From Actinophytocola gossypii (GTDB taxonomy: Bacteria; Actinomycetota; Actinomycetes; Mycobacteriales; Pseudonocardiaceae), in NCBI RefSeq assembly GCF_025165815.1, contig NZ_JAFFZE010000016.1:1-64000 (forward strand): 64,000 nt of DNA, given 5' to 3'. A model generated the notes under the pieces. It did not search any database. It saw only the letters and a list, made by a program, of their open reading frames with translations, and was not told the origin of the DNA. Positions 25,688-59,608 of this stretch are shown piece by piece; position 1 is the first letter of the stretch, and every line of letters begins with the position of its first letter. The position numbers were made by a program, and so were the translations under genes.

Positions 25688-26266
25688 CTACAGCTCCTTG
25701 ACGTGCTCGAACGGCTCCCGGCAGGACTCGCAGCGGCGCAGCGCCTTGCACGCGGTCGCGGCGAACCGGGACAGCTCGACGGTGTCGGCCGAACCGCAGT
25801 GCGGGCAGTGCACCCGGCTGGGCGGCGGGGTCAGGTTCAGCGGGACCGGGCCGGCCGGGCGCGGGCCGATCCGGGCGGGCGGGGCGATGCCGTGCTCGGC
25901 GAGCGTGCGGCGGCCGGCGTCGCTGATCCAGTCGGTGGTCCAGGCGGGGGCGAGCACGGTGCGGACCTCGACGTCGGGGTAGCCGGCGTCGCGGAGGCTG
26001 GCGCGCAGGTCACGGCGCATCTCGTCGAGGGCGGGGCAGCCGGAGTAGGTGGGGGTGATGGTGACCACGACCCGGTCGTCGTGCTCGGTGACGTCGCGGA
26101 GGACGCCGAGGTCGGCGAGGGTGAGCACGGGCAGCTCGGGGTCGAGGACGCTCTCGGCGACCTCGCGGGCGGAACGGGAGGGTACGACTCGCGCGACGGG
26201 AGCGTACGACTCGCGGGACGGGAGGGTACGACTCGCGGGACGGGAGGGTGGGACTCGCGGGGTCAC
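25688..26266 (-). CDS. paaD: Phenylacetate degradation protein PaaD (MIP18/SufT-like), repeat-derived N-terminus
   Basis: PaaD helps mature the iron centre of the epoxidase. The 192-residue reading has a DUF59/MIP18 domain (about 32-125, VLDPELPVLTLADLGVLRDV ... YSGCPALDEM) and a C-terminal zinc ribbon (CPHCGSAD ... CESCREPFEH). GTG 26266 overlaps the paaC stop by four bases. Residues 2-30, however, are translated from four 22-base tandem repeats at 26175-26262. As 22 is not a multiple of three the peptide shifts frame each unit (PSRPASRTLPSRESYAPVAR), so this tail is unlikely to be an ancestral part of PaaD. Confidence 0.88.
   Translation of the reverse strand: MTPRVPPSRPASRTLPSRESYAPVARVVPSRSAREVAESVLDPELPVLTLADLGVLRDVTEHDDRVVVTITPTYSGCPALDEMRRDLRASLRDAGYPDVEVRTVLAPAWTTDWISDAGRRTLAEHGIAPPARIGPRPAGPVPLNLTPPPSRVHCPHCGSADTVELSRFAATACKALRRCESCREPFEHVKEL
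26175..26262. repeat. Four tandem copies of a 22-base repeat at the paaC/paaD junction
   Basis: Units run 26175-26196, 26197-26218, 26219-26240 and 26241-26262 with no gap. Each begins CGGGAG[GC]GT[AG][CG]GACTCGCG and ends in four bases CGA/GGA/GGA/GGG-like. Copies differ at only one to four positions. The array ends at the base before the paaC stop codon (26263-26265) and codes for the first residues of PaaD. Confidence 0.95.
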
Positions 26267-27159
26267 CAGGTGGCTCCGGGGAGGGAGCGGGCGAGGTGCT
26301 GCATCTCGGCCAGGAGGTAGCCGAGGGCCTCCGTGTGGGCGCCGTCGCGGCCGGTGCGGCCGGCCACGGGGGACATGGGTGGGACGGTGGGGCGCGGGAG
26401 GGTGGCGGCGGTGAGGACGGTGTCCAGGACGTCGTCGAACTCGGGGCGGGCGGTGGCCGGGTCGACGGCGATGGCGGGGAGGGACTGTTCGACGGGGTGG
26501 GGGGTGAACAGTTCGTCGACCAGGGGCCAGATCTGGTCGAGGGCGGCGATCATCCGGGTGCGGGAGTGGTCGGTGCCGCCGGCCAGGCGGAGGGTCCACT
26601 GGGCGGCGTGGTCGCGGTGGTAGGCGAGTTCCTTGACGCCCTTGGCGGCGATGGCGGCGAGGACCGGGTCGGCCGAGTGGGCGAGCTGGGTGAAGACGGC
26701 GAGGCGCCAGGTGGAGAAGACGAGGAGCCGGGCGATGGTGGTGGCGAAGTCGCCGCCGGGGCCGGGGCCGCAGTCGAGTTCGACCAGGCGGACGTTGCGG
26801 AACTCGTGCTCGTCGCGGAGGTAGGCGAGGGTGTCCTCGTCGCGGCCGGCGCCCTCGACCTCGCCGGCGCGGGTCAGCAGCAGGCGGGCCTGGCCGAGCA
26901 GGTCGAGCGCGATGTTGGCCAGGGCGACGTCCTCCTCCAGCTCGGGTGCGCGGGAGCACCACTCGGTGAGGCGCTGGGACAGGATCAGGGCGTCGTCGGC
27001 GAGCATCAGGCAATAAGTCGACAAGTCGACGGCGGACGTGTCGGCCGGCACCGCGCGGTCGACCCCGGCCAGCGGGTCGTCGAAGCCGGTGCCGAACGCC
27101 CAGTGCTGGTCGTCCCCGGCCCCGTCGGTGATCGCGTCGTACGCGTTGTCGAAACTCAC
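26263..27159 (-). CDS. paaC: Phenylacetyl-CoA epoxidase subunit PaaC
   Basis: PaaC is the non-catalytic ferritin-like partner that holds PaaA in the epoxidase core. The 298-residue protein shows the helical bundle with CSRAPELEEDVALANIALDLLGQARLLL (about 68-96) and VKELAYHRDHAAQWTLRLAGGTDHSR. The GTG start and its ribosome binding site (GAGGGGG) are part of a dispersed repeat (27157-27217). It overlaps paaD at its 3' end by four bases. Confidence 0.94.
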   Translation of the reverse strand: MSFDNAYDAITDGAGDDQHWAFGTGFDDPLAGVDRAVPADTSAVDLSTYCLMLADDALILSQRLTEWCSRAPELEEDVALANIALDLLGQARLLLTRAGEVEGAGRDEDTLAYLRDEHEFRNVRLVELDCGPGPGGDFATTIARLLVFSTWRLAVFTQLAHSADPVLAAIAAKGVKELAYHRDHAAQWTLRLAGGTDHSRTRMIAALDQIWPLVDELFTPHPVEQSLPAIAVDPATARPEFDDVLDTVLTAATLPRPTVPPMSPVAGRTGRDGAHTEALGYLLAEMQHLARSLPGATW

Positions 27160-27217
27160 GTCGCCCCCTCGCAGGCTCGGTCGCCTGTATCCATTGGTTC
27201 GCTCGCAAGCTCGCTCA
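27157..27217 (-). repeat. Intercistronic repeat A, copy 1 (paaB stop to paaC start)
   Basis: On the coding strand the element opens TGAGCGAGCTTGCGAGCGAA, the TGA being the paaB stop codon, and closes with GACCGAGCCTGCGAGGGGGC then GACGTGAG, where GTG is the paaC start. The same two blocks in the same order stand between rex and hemA (58648-58723). Confidence 0.9.
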
Positions 27218-27508
27218 CAGGTGCGGCACGTCCTCGGGGATCTCGTAGAACGTCGGGTGGCGGTAGACCTTGTCGCCGGCCGGGGCGAAGAACGGGTCCT
27301 TCTCGTCCGGGGAGGACGCGGTGATCGCGGACGCCGGCACCACCCAGATGCTGACGCCCTCGTTGCGCCTGGTGTACAGGTCCCGCGCGTTCCGCAGGGC
27401 CATCTCGTCGTCGGGTGCGTGCAGCGAGCCGACGTGCACGTGGTTGAGGCCGCGCTTGCCTCGGACGAACACCTCGTACAGGGGCCAGGCCGACCTGGGG
27501 GTACTCAT
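27215..27508 (-). CDS. paaB: Phenylacetyl-CoA epoxidase subunit PaaB
   Basis: A 97-residue small subunit that bridges PaaAC heterodimers. The sequence has the family landmarks WPLYEVFVRGKRGLNHVHVGSLHAPD (residues 8-33), ARDLYTRRNEG and VYRHPTFYEIP. ATG 27508 follows GGGGAGGCGGA, which belongs to a second dispersed repeat (27514-27582). The stop codon is the first codon of repeat A. Confidence 0.95.
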   Translation of the reverse strand: MSTPRSAWPLYEVFVRGKRGLNHVHVGSLHAPDDEMALRNARDLYTRRNEGVSIWVVPASAITASSPDEKDPFFAPAGDKVYRHPTFYEIPEDVPHL

Positions 27509-27513
27509 CGTTC

Positions 27514-27582
27514 CGCCTCCCCGGACTTGTCCCTGTTGGTCGCGTTGGGAATCTTGTGTTCGGCCCGGTCACGTACTTGTGG
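27514..27582 (-). repeat. Intercistronic repeat B, copy 1 (upstream of paaB)
   Basis: On the coding strand: CCACAAGTACGTGACCGGGC, then CGAA, a variable 12-base segment, AACGCGACCAACAGGGACAA and finally CGGGGAGGCG, the ribosome binding site region of paaB. A second copy lies at 53139-53208, with 23 of 24 matches in the first block and a different 12-base middle. Confidence 0.88.
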
Positions 27583-56383: not shown

Positions 56384-57349
56384 CTACTGCTCGGGGCCGG
56401 ACAGCACGCCGGCTCCGAGCTCGAGCAGCTCGGCGGCCACGGCACGCCCCAGCTGCTCACCTTCGGTCAGGTCACCGGTGGCCGAGGCCCGGAGCAGGTC
56501 GACGGCGGTCCCCGAGAGGTCGCCGTCGGCGGTCCAGTTCGCGGCCGCGACCCCGCGCAACGACAGGCGCTGTACCACCCGGTCGTCACTGTCGAGGTCC
56601 TCGACCACGTCGGCCAGTGCGCCAACCGGGGCATTGCAGCCGGCCTCGAGCGCGGCCAGCAAGGCGCGCTCGGCGGCCACCGCGACCCGGGTGGCTTCGT
56701 CGTCCACGACGGACTGCAGGAGGTGCTCGGTGTCGACGTCGTCGACGCGGCACTCCACCGCGAGGGCACCCTGCGCGGGGGCCGGCAGGACCTGGATCGG
56801 GTCGAGTACCTCGGTGATCTCGCCCAGCCTGCCGAGCCGGGCTAGCCCGGCCCTGGCGAGCACGACCGCGTCGAGCTCGCCATCGGTCACCTTGCGGATG
56901 CGGGTGTCCACGTTGCCGCGGATCGGCACGATTTCGAGTCCCAGGCCCAGGGCCTGGAGCTGCGCGACCCGGCGCGGGGCGCCGGTGCCGACGCGGGAAC
57001 CGGGCGGCAGCTCGCCGAGCGTCAGCCCGTCCCTGGCCACCAGCGCGTCCCGGGGGTCGACGCGCGGCGGCACCGCGGCGAGCGACAGTCTCGGGTCGGG
57101 CTTGGTCGGCAGGTCCTTGTAGGAGTGCACGGCCACGTCGACCGTGCCGTCGGCGAGCGCGTCGCGCAGCGCCGAGGTGAACACGCCGATGCCGATCTCG
57201 GCGATCGGCGCGGACGAGCGGTCACCGGGGGTCTCCACCGTGACCAGCTCGACCTTGACGTCGTCCGACTCGAGTTGTTCGGCCACCGTGGCGGTCTGGG
57301 CGAGGGCGAGCGTGCTGCCCCTGGTGCCGATGCGGATCGTGCGGGTCAC
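56384..57349 (-). CDS. hemC: Hydroxymethylbilane synthase (porphobilinogen deaminase)
   Basis: HemC polymerises four porphobilinogens on a dipyrromethane cofactor. The 321-residue protein has [13 protein letters not shown] (about 6-18), [24 protein letters not shown] and the cofactor-binding C238 in [14 protein letters not shown] 57349 overlaps the hemA stop by four bases. Confidence 0.96.
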
Positions 57350-58650
57350 CGGTGTTCACCGTCCGTCGTGTTCGTGATCGCCGCCGGCGCCGTCGGGTCG
57401 AGCCCGAACAGCTCGCGGAGCGCCTCGGCGTACTCGGCGCCGCCGGGGCCGGAGGCCAGCTCCTTGACCCGCACGGTCGGCGTGTGCAGCAGCTTGTCGA
57501 CTACCCGGCGCACGGTCTGGGCAACCTCGCCGCGTACCCGGGCGTCCACGTCGGGCAGCCGCGAGTCCAGGCGCAGCAGCTCGGCGTCGACCACCTCGGC
57601 GGCCCGGCGGCGCAGCGCGGTGACGGTCGGGGTGACCTCGGCGGAGCGCTGGGTGGCGAGGTAGCCGCGGACCTCCTCGGCGACGATCTCGCCGGCGCGG
57701 CGGGTGTCCAGCCCGGCAGGCGAGTCGGCCAGCCGGCGCTGCAGGTGCTCCAGGTCGACGATCGTGACCAGGTCGAGGTCGCCGATCGCGGCGTCGACGT
57801 CGCGGGGCAGGCCGAGGTCGCAGACGACCAGCGGCCGGGTGCGCGGGCGGACCGCGTCCAGCTCGACGACGGTGCCGGTGGCGCCGGTGCAGGCGACGAC
57901 GAGGTCGGCGGCGGCGACGTGGTCGGCCAGGTCGCCGAGGCCGACCGAGGTGGCCGGGACACCGGCCGCGCGCTGGAGTTCGGCGAGCCGCGCGCCGGTG
58001 GCCTCGGTGCGGTTGGCGACGACGATCTCCCCGATGCCGGCGCGGCGCAGCGCGGCGGCGGCGAGCCCGCCCATCGAGCCGGCGCCGACGAGCAGCGCGG
58101 TGCGGCCGGCGAGCCCGTCGAGCAGCCGGTCGGCGTCGGCGAGCGCCTCGGAGACAACGGAGCCGCCCGCGGCGTCCAGGCCGGTCTCGGCGTGCACCCG
58201 CTTGCCGACCCGCAGCGCGCGCTGGACCAGCTCGTGCATGGTGCGGCCGACGGTGCCGGCCTCGCGGGCGGTGCCGTAGGCGTTGCGGACCTGGCCGAGG
58301 ATCTGCGACTCGCCGACGACCATGGAGTCCAGCCCGGCGGTGACCGAGAACAGGTGCTCGACCGCGGCGGCCGCGTAGTGCACGTAGAGGTGCTCGTACA
58401 GCTCGGCGGTGTCCAGCCCGGAGTGCCGGCCGAGCACGTCGACGATGTCCGCGAGGCCGCCGTGGAAGGCCTGCACGACCGCGTAGACCTCGACCCGGTT
58501 GCAGGTGCTGACCAGGGTGGCCTCGACGACGTTGGACCGGTGCATCAGCTCGTCGAGGATCTTGCCGACCTCGTTGGCCGGCACGGTGGCGCGTTCCAGC
58601 ACGCGCAGGTCCGCCGACTGGTGCGAGAGCCCCACGGCTATGACACTCAC
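57346..58650 (-). CDS. hemA: Glutamyl-tRNA reductase
   Basis: HemA reduces glutamyl-tRNA to glutamate-1-semialdehyde, the committed and regulated step of heme synthesis. The 434-residue protein has the catalytic C50 ([13 protein letters not shown]), [18 protein letters not shown], the NADPH loop [20 protein letters not shown] and the C-terminal dimerisation helices. Start codon GTG and ribosome binding site GAGGGGG come from repeat A copy 2. Regulation by Rex through the upstream site is likely. Confidence 0.96.
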
Positions 58651-58723
58651 GACGCCCCCTCGCAGGCTCGGTCGCGCCGGTCGCGGTCGCCCTGTGACAT
58701 GGATTCGCTCGCAAGCTCGCTCA
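58648..58723 (-). repeat. Intercistronic repeat A, copy 2 (rex stop to hemA start)
   Basis: The coding strand opens TGAGCGAGCTTGCGAGCGAA with TGA as the rex stop and closes GACCGAGCCTGCGAGGGGGC then GTCGTGAG with GTG as the hemA start. Compared with copy 1 it holds about 16 extra bases in the middle (CG-rich, GGCGACCGCGACCGGCGC-like). Confidence 0.9.
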
Positions 58724-59539
58724 TCTGCGGACCACCACCCCGTTCGGCGCGTTCCCGTTGACCCGTTGGGCCGGGGTGGCGTCGGCGTCCGGGGCGTGGT
58801 CGGCGCGGCGGGCGACGTGGAAGGACAGGATCTGCAGCTCCACCGCGAGGTCGACCTTGCGCACCTCGACCGTCTCCGGGACCTGGAGCACGACCGGGGC
58901 GAAGTTCAGGATGCACTCGACGCCGGCCTGCACGAGCCGGTCGCACACGGCCTGCGCGGCCGGCGGCGGGGTGGCGATGACGCCGATCGTCACCTCGCGC
59001 GCGGCGCAGACCTTCGGGATGTCGTCGATGTGGTCGACCGGGATCCCCCCGACGGGCACGCCCATCAGGTCGGGGTCGACGTCGAACAGCGCGGTCACCG
59101 GGAAGCCCCTGCCTGGGAATCCGCCGTAGTTTGCCAGTGCGTGTCCGAGGTTACCGATGCCGACGACGGCCACGCTCTGTTCACGGGTGAGTCCGAGCAC
59201 ACGCTCGATCTGGTCGACCAGCACCTCGACCTCGTAGCCGACGCCGCGGGTGCCGTACGAGCCGATGTAGGACAGGTCCTTGCGCAGCTTCGCCGAGTTG
59301 ACGCCGGCCGCGCCGGACAGCTCCTCGCTGGACACGCTGGCGACGCCCTGCTCCCGCATTCCGGAGAGAACCCGCAGGTAGACGGCGAGCCGGGCGACGG
59401 CGGCCTCGGGGATGGCCCGGGCGCGGTCCCGCAGTCCGTTGCCGTTGATGGTCGGCATCGGAGTGGTGATCTCGGCCGCGTTCTCGGCAGGCGCGCGGGG
59501 TGTTCTACCGGCTGCGTCGGACTGGCCACGCTGCGCCAC
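58721..59539 (-). CDS. rex: Redox-sensing transcriptional repressor Rex
   Basis: Rex reads the NADH/NAD+ ratio and represses respiratory genes when NADH is low. The 272-residue protein has an N-terminal winged helix ([55 protein letters not shown] split over about 41-95) and a Rossmann domain with [19 protein letters not shown] (about 120-138). The C-terminus is longer than in Streptomyces. GTG 59539 has AAGGAG seven bases upstream. A Rex-type operator at 59591-59608 implies autoregulation, and it shares its transcript with hemA. Confidence 0.96.
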
Positions 59540-59590
59540 GCTGACACTCCTTGAAAGACTCGCCCCTGGGATGCGCCTAACGGTAGCCGC

Positions 59591-59608
59591 TTGTGAACGC
59601 AGGCACAA
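59591..59608. promoter_or_regulatory. Rex operator upstream of rex-hem
   Basis: On the rex strand TTGTGCCTGCGTTCACAA has the ends TTGTG and TTCACAA of the Rex site; the right half matches the consensus fully, the left half loses two A residues. It lies about 52 bases before the rex start. Confidence 0.6.

Follow-up and report, generated by a model that had tools for sequence, protein, structure and literature searches.

A small, probably mobile MIRU-like element at stop/start codon overlaps in Actinophytocola gossypii and other actinobacteria

Mycobacterial interspersed repetitive units (MIRUs) reportedly go back to Supply et al. in 1997. The non-autonomous elements of the REP/RAYT and IS200/IS605 types form hairpins, insert 3' of a tetranucleotide and use guide pairing with the target, and Rickettsia palindromic elements insert inside coding sequences. 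For MIRUs, an excerpt of a 2025 review describes the same mode of action as we propose here (PMC12548453). The length of a tandem repeat before M. tuberculosis fpg1 was reported to influence expression, according to an excerpt of that study (PMC2734929).

The window, a stretch of 64,000 nt from Actinophytocola gossypii, holds two copies of one element, which run from RTGA to RTGA at positions 27156-27218 and 58647-58724 of the minus strand. The first-pass annotation had noted two shared sequence blocks at the paaB/paaC and rex/hemA junctions; both blocks were recovered at both junctions, on the minus strand and with one more base at each end. It was also correct that in both copies the first TGA is the stop codon of the upstream gene and the last GTG the start codon of the next. 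NCBIfam identified the genes concerned as Rex, glutamyl-tRNA reductase HemA, PaaB, PaaC and PaaA. The full unit measures 74 nt, and the paaB/paaC copy has a 15-nt in-frame deletion. Each unit is an open reading frame that shares an RTGA with both neighbour genes, which the first-pass annotation had not noticed. We therefore read the unit as a micro-ORF that is probably coupled to its neighbours; in mycobacteria, elements of this kind are known as MIRU. The features are as follows.

58647..58724, minus strand: rex/hemA copy of the element, including both RTGA ends and the micro-ORF (core match and scan; site empty in three congeners)
58721..58724, minus strand: left ATGA, shared by the rex stop TGA and the start codon ATG of the micro-ORF; interpreted as the original target (three congeners have the bare ATGA overlap)
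58703..58724, minus strand: 5' hairpin RTGAGCGAGCTTGCGAGCGAAY of the rex/hemA copy, R1-Y22 being A-T (covariation)
58653..58675, minus strand: 3' hairpin of the rex/hemA copy with a GAGC..GCGA core and a Shine-Dalgarno (SD)-like GAGGGGG in the 3' arm (arm covariation; SD role inferred)
58647..58650, minus strand: right GTGA, shared by the micro-ORF stop and the start codon GTG of hemA; interpreted as the element's own contribution (hemA begins with ATG in the three congeners whose site is empty)
27156..27218, minus strand: element at the paaB/paaC junction with the 15-nt in-frame deletion; micro-ORF peptide VSELASEPMDTGDRACEGAT, then stop (core match and scan; empty in one congener)
27197..27218, minus strand: 5' hairpin of the paaB/paaC copy, R1 = G and Y22 = C (sequence, covariation)
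27162..27183, minus strand: 3' hairpin core and SD-like GAGGGGG of the paaB/paaC copy (scan; covariation)
57346..58650, minus strand: hemA, glutamyl-tRNA reductase, downstream gene (NCBIfam)
58721..59608, minus strand: rex, redox-sensing repressor, upstream gene, start uncertain (NCBIfam)
26263..27159, minus strand: paaC, downstream gene (NCBIfam)
27215..27565, minus strand: paaB, upstream gene, start uncertain (NCBIfam)

The 19-mer GAGCGAGCTTGCGAGCGAA, searched in the window with up to 3 mismatches, gave 2 matches, both exact, while 0.03 were expected in shuffles. GACCGAGCCTGCGAGG also had 2 exact matches in the window; with up to 3 mismatches it gave 8 against 3.4 expected in shuffles, so that only its exact matches were taken as meaningful. 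A scan of the window that allowed for degenerate copies yielded no third copy. The genome as a whole contains far more than the two copies: 14 units at 9 sites were detected with the core at up to 2 mismatches, namely five head-to-tail 74-nt copies on contig C16, two on C47 and seven singles. With the 3' block at up to 2 mismatches 21 matches were obtained and 3 with a reversed-pattern control. The 3'-block matches beyond the 14 units comprised two remnants, four chance-looking matches and one variant copy whose 5' hairpin has GGA in each arm. At C1:121336 (L027) a 3' half of the element was seen a few bases after the palindrome TGTTTCACGTGAAACA, which resembles a parS site.

All 9 sites end in RTGA at a downstream ORF of at least 120 codons, stop included (two of them open to the end of the stretch), and at 7 of the 9 the left TGA terminates a long upstream frame; the two sites where it does not are on C7 and C49. 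Hence the copies are not equally frequent outside such junctions. The exact placement between two cistrons that had been supposed applies to these seven sites, while some copies lie at start codons without an upstream overlap.

In the family, the core was present at up to 1 mismatch in 91 of 297 sampled genomes from 23 of 46 genera, with 0 for the reversed-pattern control; the maximum in one genome was 95 core matches, sub-repeats included. The exact core occurred in at least 120 stretches of named genomes. Carriers among the 80 stretches listed were many Pseudonocardiaceae, Actinoplanes and relatives, Nocardia, Rhodococcus, Geodermatophilus, Blastococcus and Trebonia, besides two mycobacteria with the 5' part only and a few apparent chance matches outside actinobacteria. 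RT precedes 130 of 139 cores in the listed named-genome stretches and thus yields RTG. Chance or an assembly artefact as the origin of the repeat has a negligible probability, had nothing in its favour, and is refuted by the shuffle expectation in the window, the count of 0 for the reversed-pattern control in the listed rows of the family scan and the presence of the element in independent named assemblies. Searches of plasmids, phages and viral contigs gave no match, and five loci with copies had 0 matches to Rfam families above the gathering score. Literature searches, of which part of the results was covered, turned up no published description of the element in these genera. A second version with the same 5' hairpin and another 3' end, GCTGCCGACGAAGGAGGC[AG]GCGTGA, was observed in Kutzneria G142 (L228, L248, L256) and at L355.

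Orthologous junctions of related genomes were then compared. At rex/hemA, three of five congeners (G066, G094, G115) have an ATGA overlap without insert and start hemA with ATG; two (G031, G132) are occupied. The paaB/paaC junction lacks an insert in G115 and carries the element in G031 and G094; a scar-like stretch of 14 nt stands there in G066 and about 30 nt of other sequence in G132. At the C11 site we found an empty junction in G094, a copy in G031, no overlap in G115 and no match in two congeners. The site of the C16 array, examined in 4 congeners, is empty in G132, carries a truncated gene-fused copy in G094, lacks the overlap in G031 and shows a GTGA overlap behind a different-looking upstream gene in G115. 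Two occupied junctions of Kutzneria lie before genes that we take to be pyrF and ruvB. The pyrF-like junction is empty in G126, G109, G019 and G087, bears a different copy in G057 and had no match in G157. The ruvA/ruvB-like one is empty in G109, G126, G057, G087 and G157 and contains a decayed copy in G019. Both frames were computed at 14 of the 15 empty sites and revealed a 4-nt RTGA overlap with at least 292 open codons upstream and a downstream ORF of at least 252 codons; the fifteenth, ruvB in G157, was read from the sequence. Thus the proposal of the first-pass annotation, a dispersed element inserted exactly between stop and start, largely holds, the empty orthologous sites being 4-nt RTGA overlaps. 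A role in mRNA processing, also raised there, found no support.

The same comparison bears on the possibility of a domesticated regulatory element, whose hairpins and SD sequence would tune the downstream gene by attenuation or reinitiation control and which would be kept for regulation, not as selfish DNA that is tolerated. The copies in core operons, rex/hemA here and before the pyrF- and ruvB-like genes in Kutzneria, would agree with this, as would the effect of upstream repeat length that the excerpt on M. tuberculosis fpg1 reports (PMC2734929). Yet occupied and empty sites differ between congeners, decayed copies exist, and the operons looked at are without an obvious common function. We regard a regulatory role as the reason for retention as rather unlikely.

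Since at rex/hemA, pyrF and ruvB the left end carries the ATGA of the empty site, as opposed to GTGA on the right, the left RTGA was read as the target. At 3 of 4 informative sites it looks as if the right RTGA, i.e. the new start codon, comes with the element. The fourth, C11, contradicts the rule, as the empty relative has GTGA and the copy ATGA on the left and GTGA on the right; perhaps an apparent remnant of an older copy at this site is the cause. For paaB/paaC the overlap reads ATGA in the empty relative, and the window copy has GTGA at both ends. A simple target-site duplication is disfavoured: left and right R differ in many copies (39 of 145 single sites), and at three junctions it is the left end that agrees with the empty site, although C11 does not conform. 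Of the translation signals that the element had been thought to replace, the downstream start codon and the SD-like GAGGGG appear to be its own, whereas the left RTGA seems mostly to belong to the target.

The left RTG opens a frame that runs to the right RTGA, and 93 of 99 short ORFs among the listed named copies end in RTGA. For a test of frame conservation 151 units were delimited by the hairpins alone, ignoring the frame. The distance from left to right was 2 mod 3 in 136, 0 in 12 and 1 in 3 units; a distance of 2 mod 3 results in the 4-nt overlap. Units of 74 and 77 nt dominate, and the frame counts are thus not independent; without these founder lengths the numbers were 17, 12 and 3 of 32 for 2, 0 and 1 mod 3. 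Tandem spacings were distributed 22, 13 and 3 of 38 in the same order, the 78-nt arrays of Kutzneria being fused in frame. In Kutzneria G142 (L237, L241, L247, L255, L257, L262) the internal copies mostly end in GCGCATGAG, measure 78 nt and are fused in frame, and the gene-adjacent copies mostly end in GCAGTGAG, measure 77 nt and have the stop/start overlap. A 30-nt sub-repeat of the 5' hairpin (GAGCGAGCGTGCGAGCGAAC...) was seen expanding in tandem, in frame, within one unit at L132 and at C4:9056 of G132 (L044).

Among the 112 listed named copies, the end coincides with the start of an ORF of at least 50 codons in 80 and does not in 8; the other 24 lack a short ORF, being truncated or continuing in frame into the next unit or gene. 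An overlap with an upstream stop was found in 83 of the 112, compared with 846 of 1921 control RTGAG sites, a modest enrichment in GC-rich DNA. This junction count excluded 8 named loci (outside actinobacteria or without the element) and sites near stretch ends.

An open frame would also be expected if the unit were a conserved small protein gene, spread as such for its peptide product of 25 amino acids. The micro-ORF frame was indeed open in 151 of 151 units, with stops in 34 and 32 units for the other two frames, and the N-terminus MSELASE[SP] is constant, a constancy that the search core partly imposes. Yet the ratio of nonsynonymous to synonymous changes was at or above the random expectation in 4 of 4 sets: 6.3 vs 3.3 expected for the Actinophytocola copies, 6.8 vs 3.0 for Kutzneria, 2.9 vs 2.9 for all 77-nt units and 4.4 vs 3.5 for all 74-nt units. 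Third codon positions were the least variable in all four sets, and the hairpin arms covary as pairs regardless of codons. Conservation at the level of the peptide was rejected on these grounds, and a small protein gene appears very improbable. What is conserved according to the aligned copies is the predicted hairpin structure, not the peptide.

The hairpin that had been suggested from inner inverted parts is supported by covariation, although the arms would pair partly via G.A mismatches. The 5' part can pair as R1-Y22, T-A, G.A, A.G, G-C, C-G, G.A, A.G, G-C and C-G around TT. R1, a base of the start codon, and Y22 covary (88 A-T, 48 G-C, 11 A-C and 8 G-T, leaving out non-RTG and non-Y rows), and they do so inside single genomes, one of Kutzneria (25 A-T, 13 G-C, 1 A-C and 2 G-T; n = 41) and G132 (20 A-T, 19 G-C, 5 A-C and 2 G-T, a further 9 of 55 being not RTG or not Y). 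Among covarying pairs R1-Y22 ranked first for 77-nt units and third for 74-nt units. Across the 145 single sites the identity of Y22 goes with that of the left R, irrespective of the right one.

The 3' part contains the core GAGC..GCGA; its arms vary from copy to copy, and the changes are compensatory. Arm pairing amounted to 127 of 171 in Actinophytocola (shuffles 83.6 ± 5.4; reached by 0 of 2000), 881 of 1302 over all loci (682 ± 12.5) and, with a looser pattern, 188 of 405 in Kutzneria (161 ± 6.5). Arms of GGA-type 3' hairpins showed no clear excess with 73 of 100 against 68.9 ± 1.4, a value reached by 111 of 2000 shuffles. The covariation and arm-pairing counts take only copies that fit a length or pattern. 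The change from GA to GGA was symmetric in 18 copies (16 in the 3' and 2 in the 5' hairpin); 6 were one-sided or unequal, and 385 were unchanged. Minimum free energies of single sequences were no better than those of shuffles (z from -1.1 to +1.9). A middle hairpin sought with a generic pattern was discarded, as 119 of 265 pairs did not exceed the 114.8 of shuffles.

The covariation of R1 with Y22 within one genome, not followed by the right R, would fit a Y1 transposase that acts in trans on an element of the IS200/IS605 or REP/RAYT type, with GAAY as a guide that pairs with the target RTGA. The hairpins are in line with such a mobiliser, and so is insertion 3' of a tetranucleotide which then forms the left end, as is the match of the left RTGA with the empty site, the right one differing, at rex/hemA, pyrF and ruvB. 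On the other hand, PF01797 (Y1_Tnp) was found in 1 of 10 element-bearing genomes tested, compared with 5 of 12 without a core match; the genome of the window is among the nine in which it was absent. Moreover, the ruvB copy combines A with C22 on an A target; R1-Y22 pairing is therefore not strictly required for insertion. A Y1/RAYT mobiliser thus is quite unlikely.

Taken together, the comparisons demonstrate, as far as DNA sequence can tell, insertion at stop/start RTGA overlaps and conservation of frame and fold. We favor the view, with a probability of about 0.82, that the units are small non-autonomous mobile elements of the MIRU type which enter RTGA overlaps and keep coupling via a micro-ORF. 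The element would enter directly 3' of an RTGA where stop and start codons overlap. The left RTGA would stay the stop of the upstream gene and at the same time open a micro-ORF, about 25 codons long, that spans the element; the right RTGA would end the micro-ORF and serve as the new downstream start codon, preceded at a distance of a few bases by GAGG(GG). After finishing the upstream gene, a ribosome may re-initiate on the micro-ORF, unfold the 3' hairpin that contains the SD-like sequence and so reach the downstream gene. Translation seems to pass through the element and the operon to be still readable. Because coupling would outlive the insertion, the cost would be low and the element could be tolerated even in core operons. 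Either selection or the insertion process would keep the open frame and the hairpins at both ends, but not the peptide.

More tentatively, and with odds that we put below even, the units may belong to a class of mobile elements that is found throughout the phylum and is specialised for sites of translational coupling; MIRU would be its mycobacterial branch. In such a class an internal GAAY guide would pair with RTGA, the start codon would lie in a hairpin of alternating G.A and G-C pairs, and an enzyme other than a known Y1 transposase would act.

The data suggest that what passed for a peculiarity of mycobacteria has relatives with the same anatomy in several families of actinobacteria. They provide what studies of MIRU need, namely numerous copies, sites without the insert and a fold that covariation supports, and make it testable how an insertion enters an operon without polarity and which enzyme moves MIRU-like DNA. 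Truncated elements were also seen fused in frame to the downstream gene, giving proteins with the N-terminus MSELASE[SP]... (L094, L112, L118, L128, L130, L164 and others). As a warning for annotation, some actinobacterial proteins that begin with MSELASE[SP] may carry an N-terminus derived from the element.

How does the element compare with the known systems? Rickettsia palindromic elements are likewise palindromic repeats that keep reading frames open, but they insert within coding sequences and the present element at stop/start overlaps. With REP/RAYT and IS200/IS605 elements it shares the hairpins, the insertion 3' of a tetranucleotide and a possible guide pairing with the target; it differs in being bound to start codons, in carrying an ORF and in the absence of Y1 from 9 of 10 carriers tested.

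The closest likeness is to MIRU. As in the excerpted review (PMC12548453), the units are short, dispersed and tandem and lie at start codons, have an internal ORF that overlaps the next gene by 4 nt, and are presumed to be mobile. Units of about 40-100 bp define MIRU, and those found here are mostly 74 or 77 nt with tandem arrays of five and two; the ORF with a 4-nt overlap to the next gene is present in sequence at 9 of 9 sites of the genome, and the empty orthologous sites document insertion at start codons and coupling sites. The MIRU-type motif GATGCAGAGCGNAGCGATGAG, derived in part from an excerpt on an M. intracellulare repeat primer (PMC10117815), had 0 matches in the genome of the window. 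MIRU-type units occurred in 15 of 298 genomes of the order, all of one genus. Thirty fetched loci contained 33 units, 21 with NTGA on both sides within reach and 12 without. The frame was open in 20 of the 21 delimited mycobacterial units; the distance was 2 mod 3 in 14 of the 21 and 50-53 nt in 16 of the 21. At L311, L318 and L322, inferred to be Mycobacterium, a MIRU-type unit stands just before a gene starting MIEEALFDAEEKME, presumably frr, in three genomes; possibly this is an old shared insertion.

The fetched mycobacterial units and the present element have in common the GAGC-NNN-GCGA hairpin core, the NTGA ends and a 3' end of the GAGGAG type. They differ in length (mostly 50-53 nt, 16 of the 21 delimited units, against 74-77 nt) and in the 5' sequence, and the present element has two hairpins with the start codon inside the first. 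Thus it resembles MIRU, to judge from a likeness in sequence that is limited to the hairpin core motif, the NTGA ends and the 3' end.
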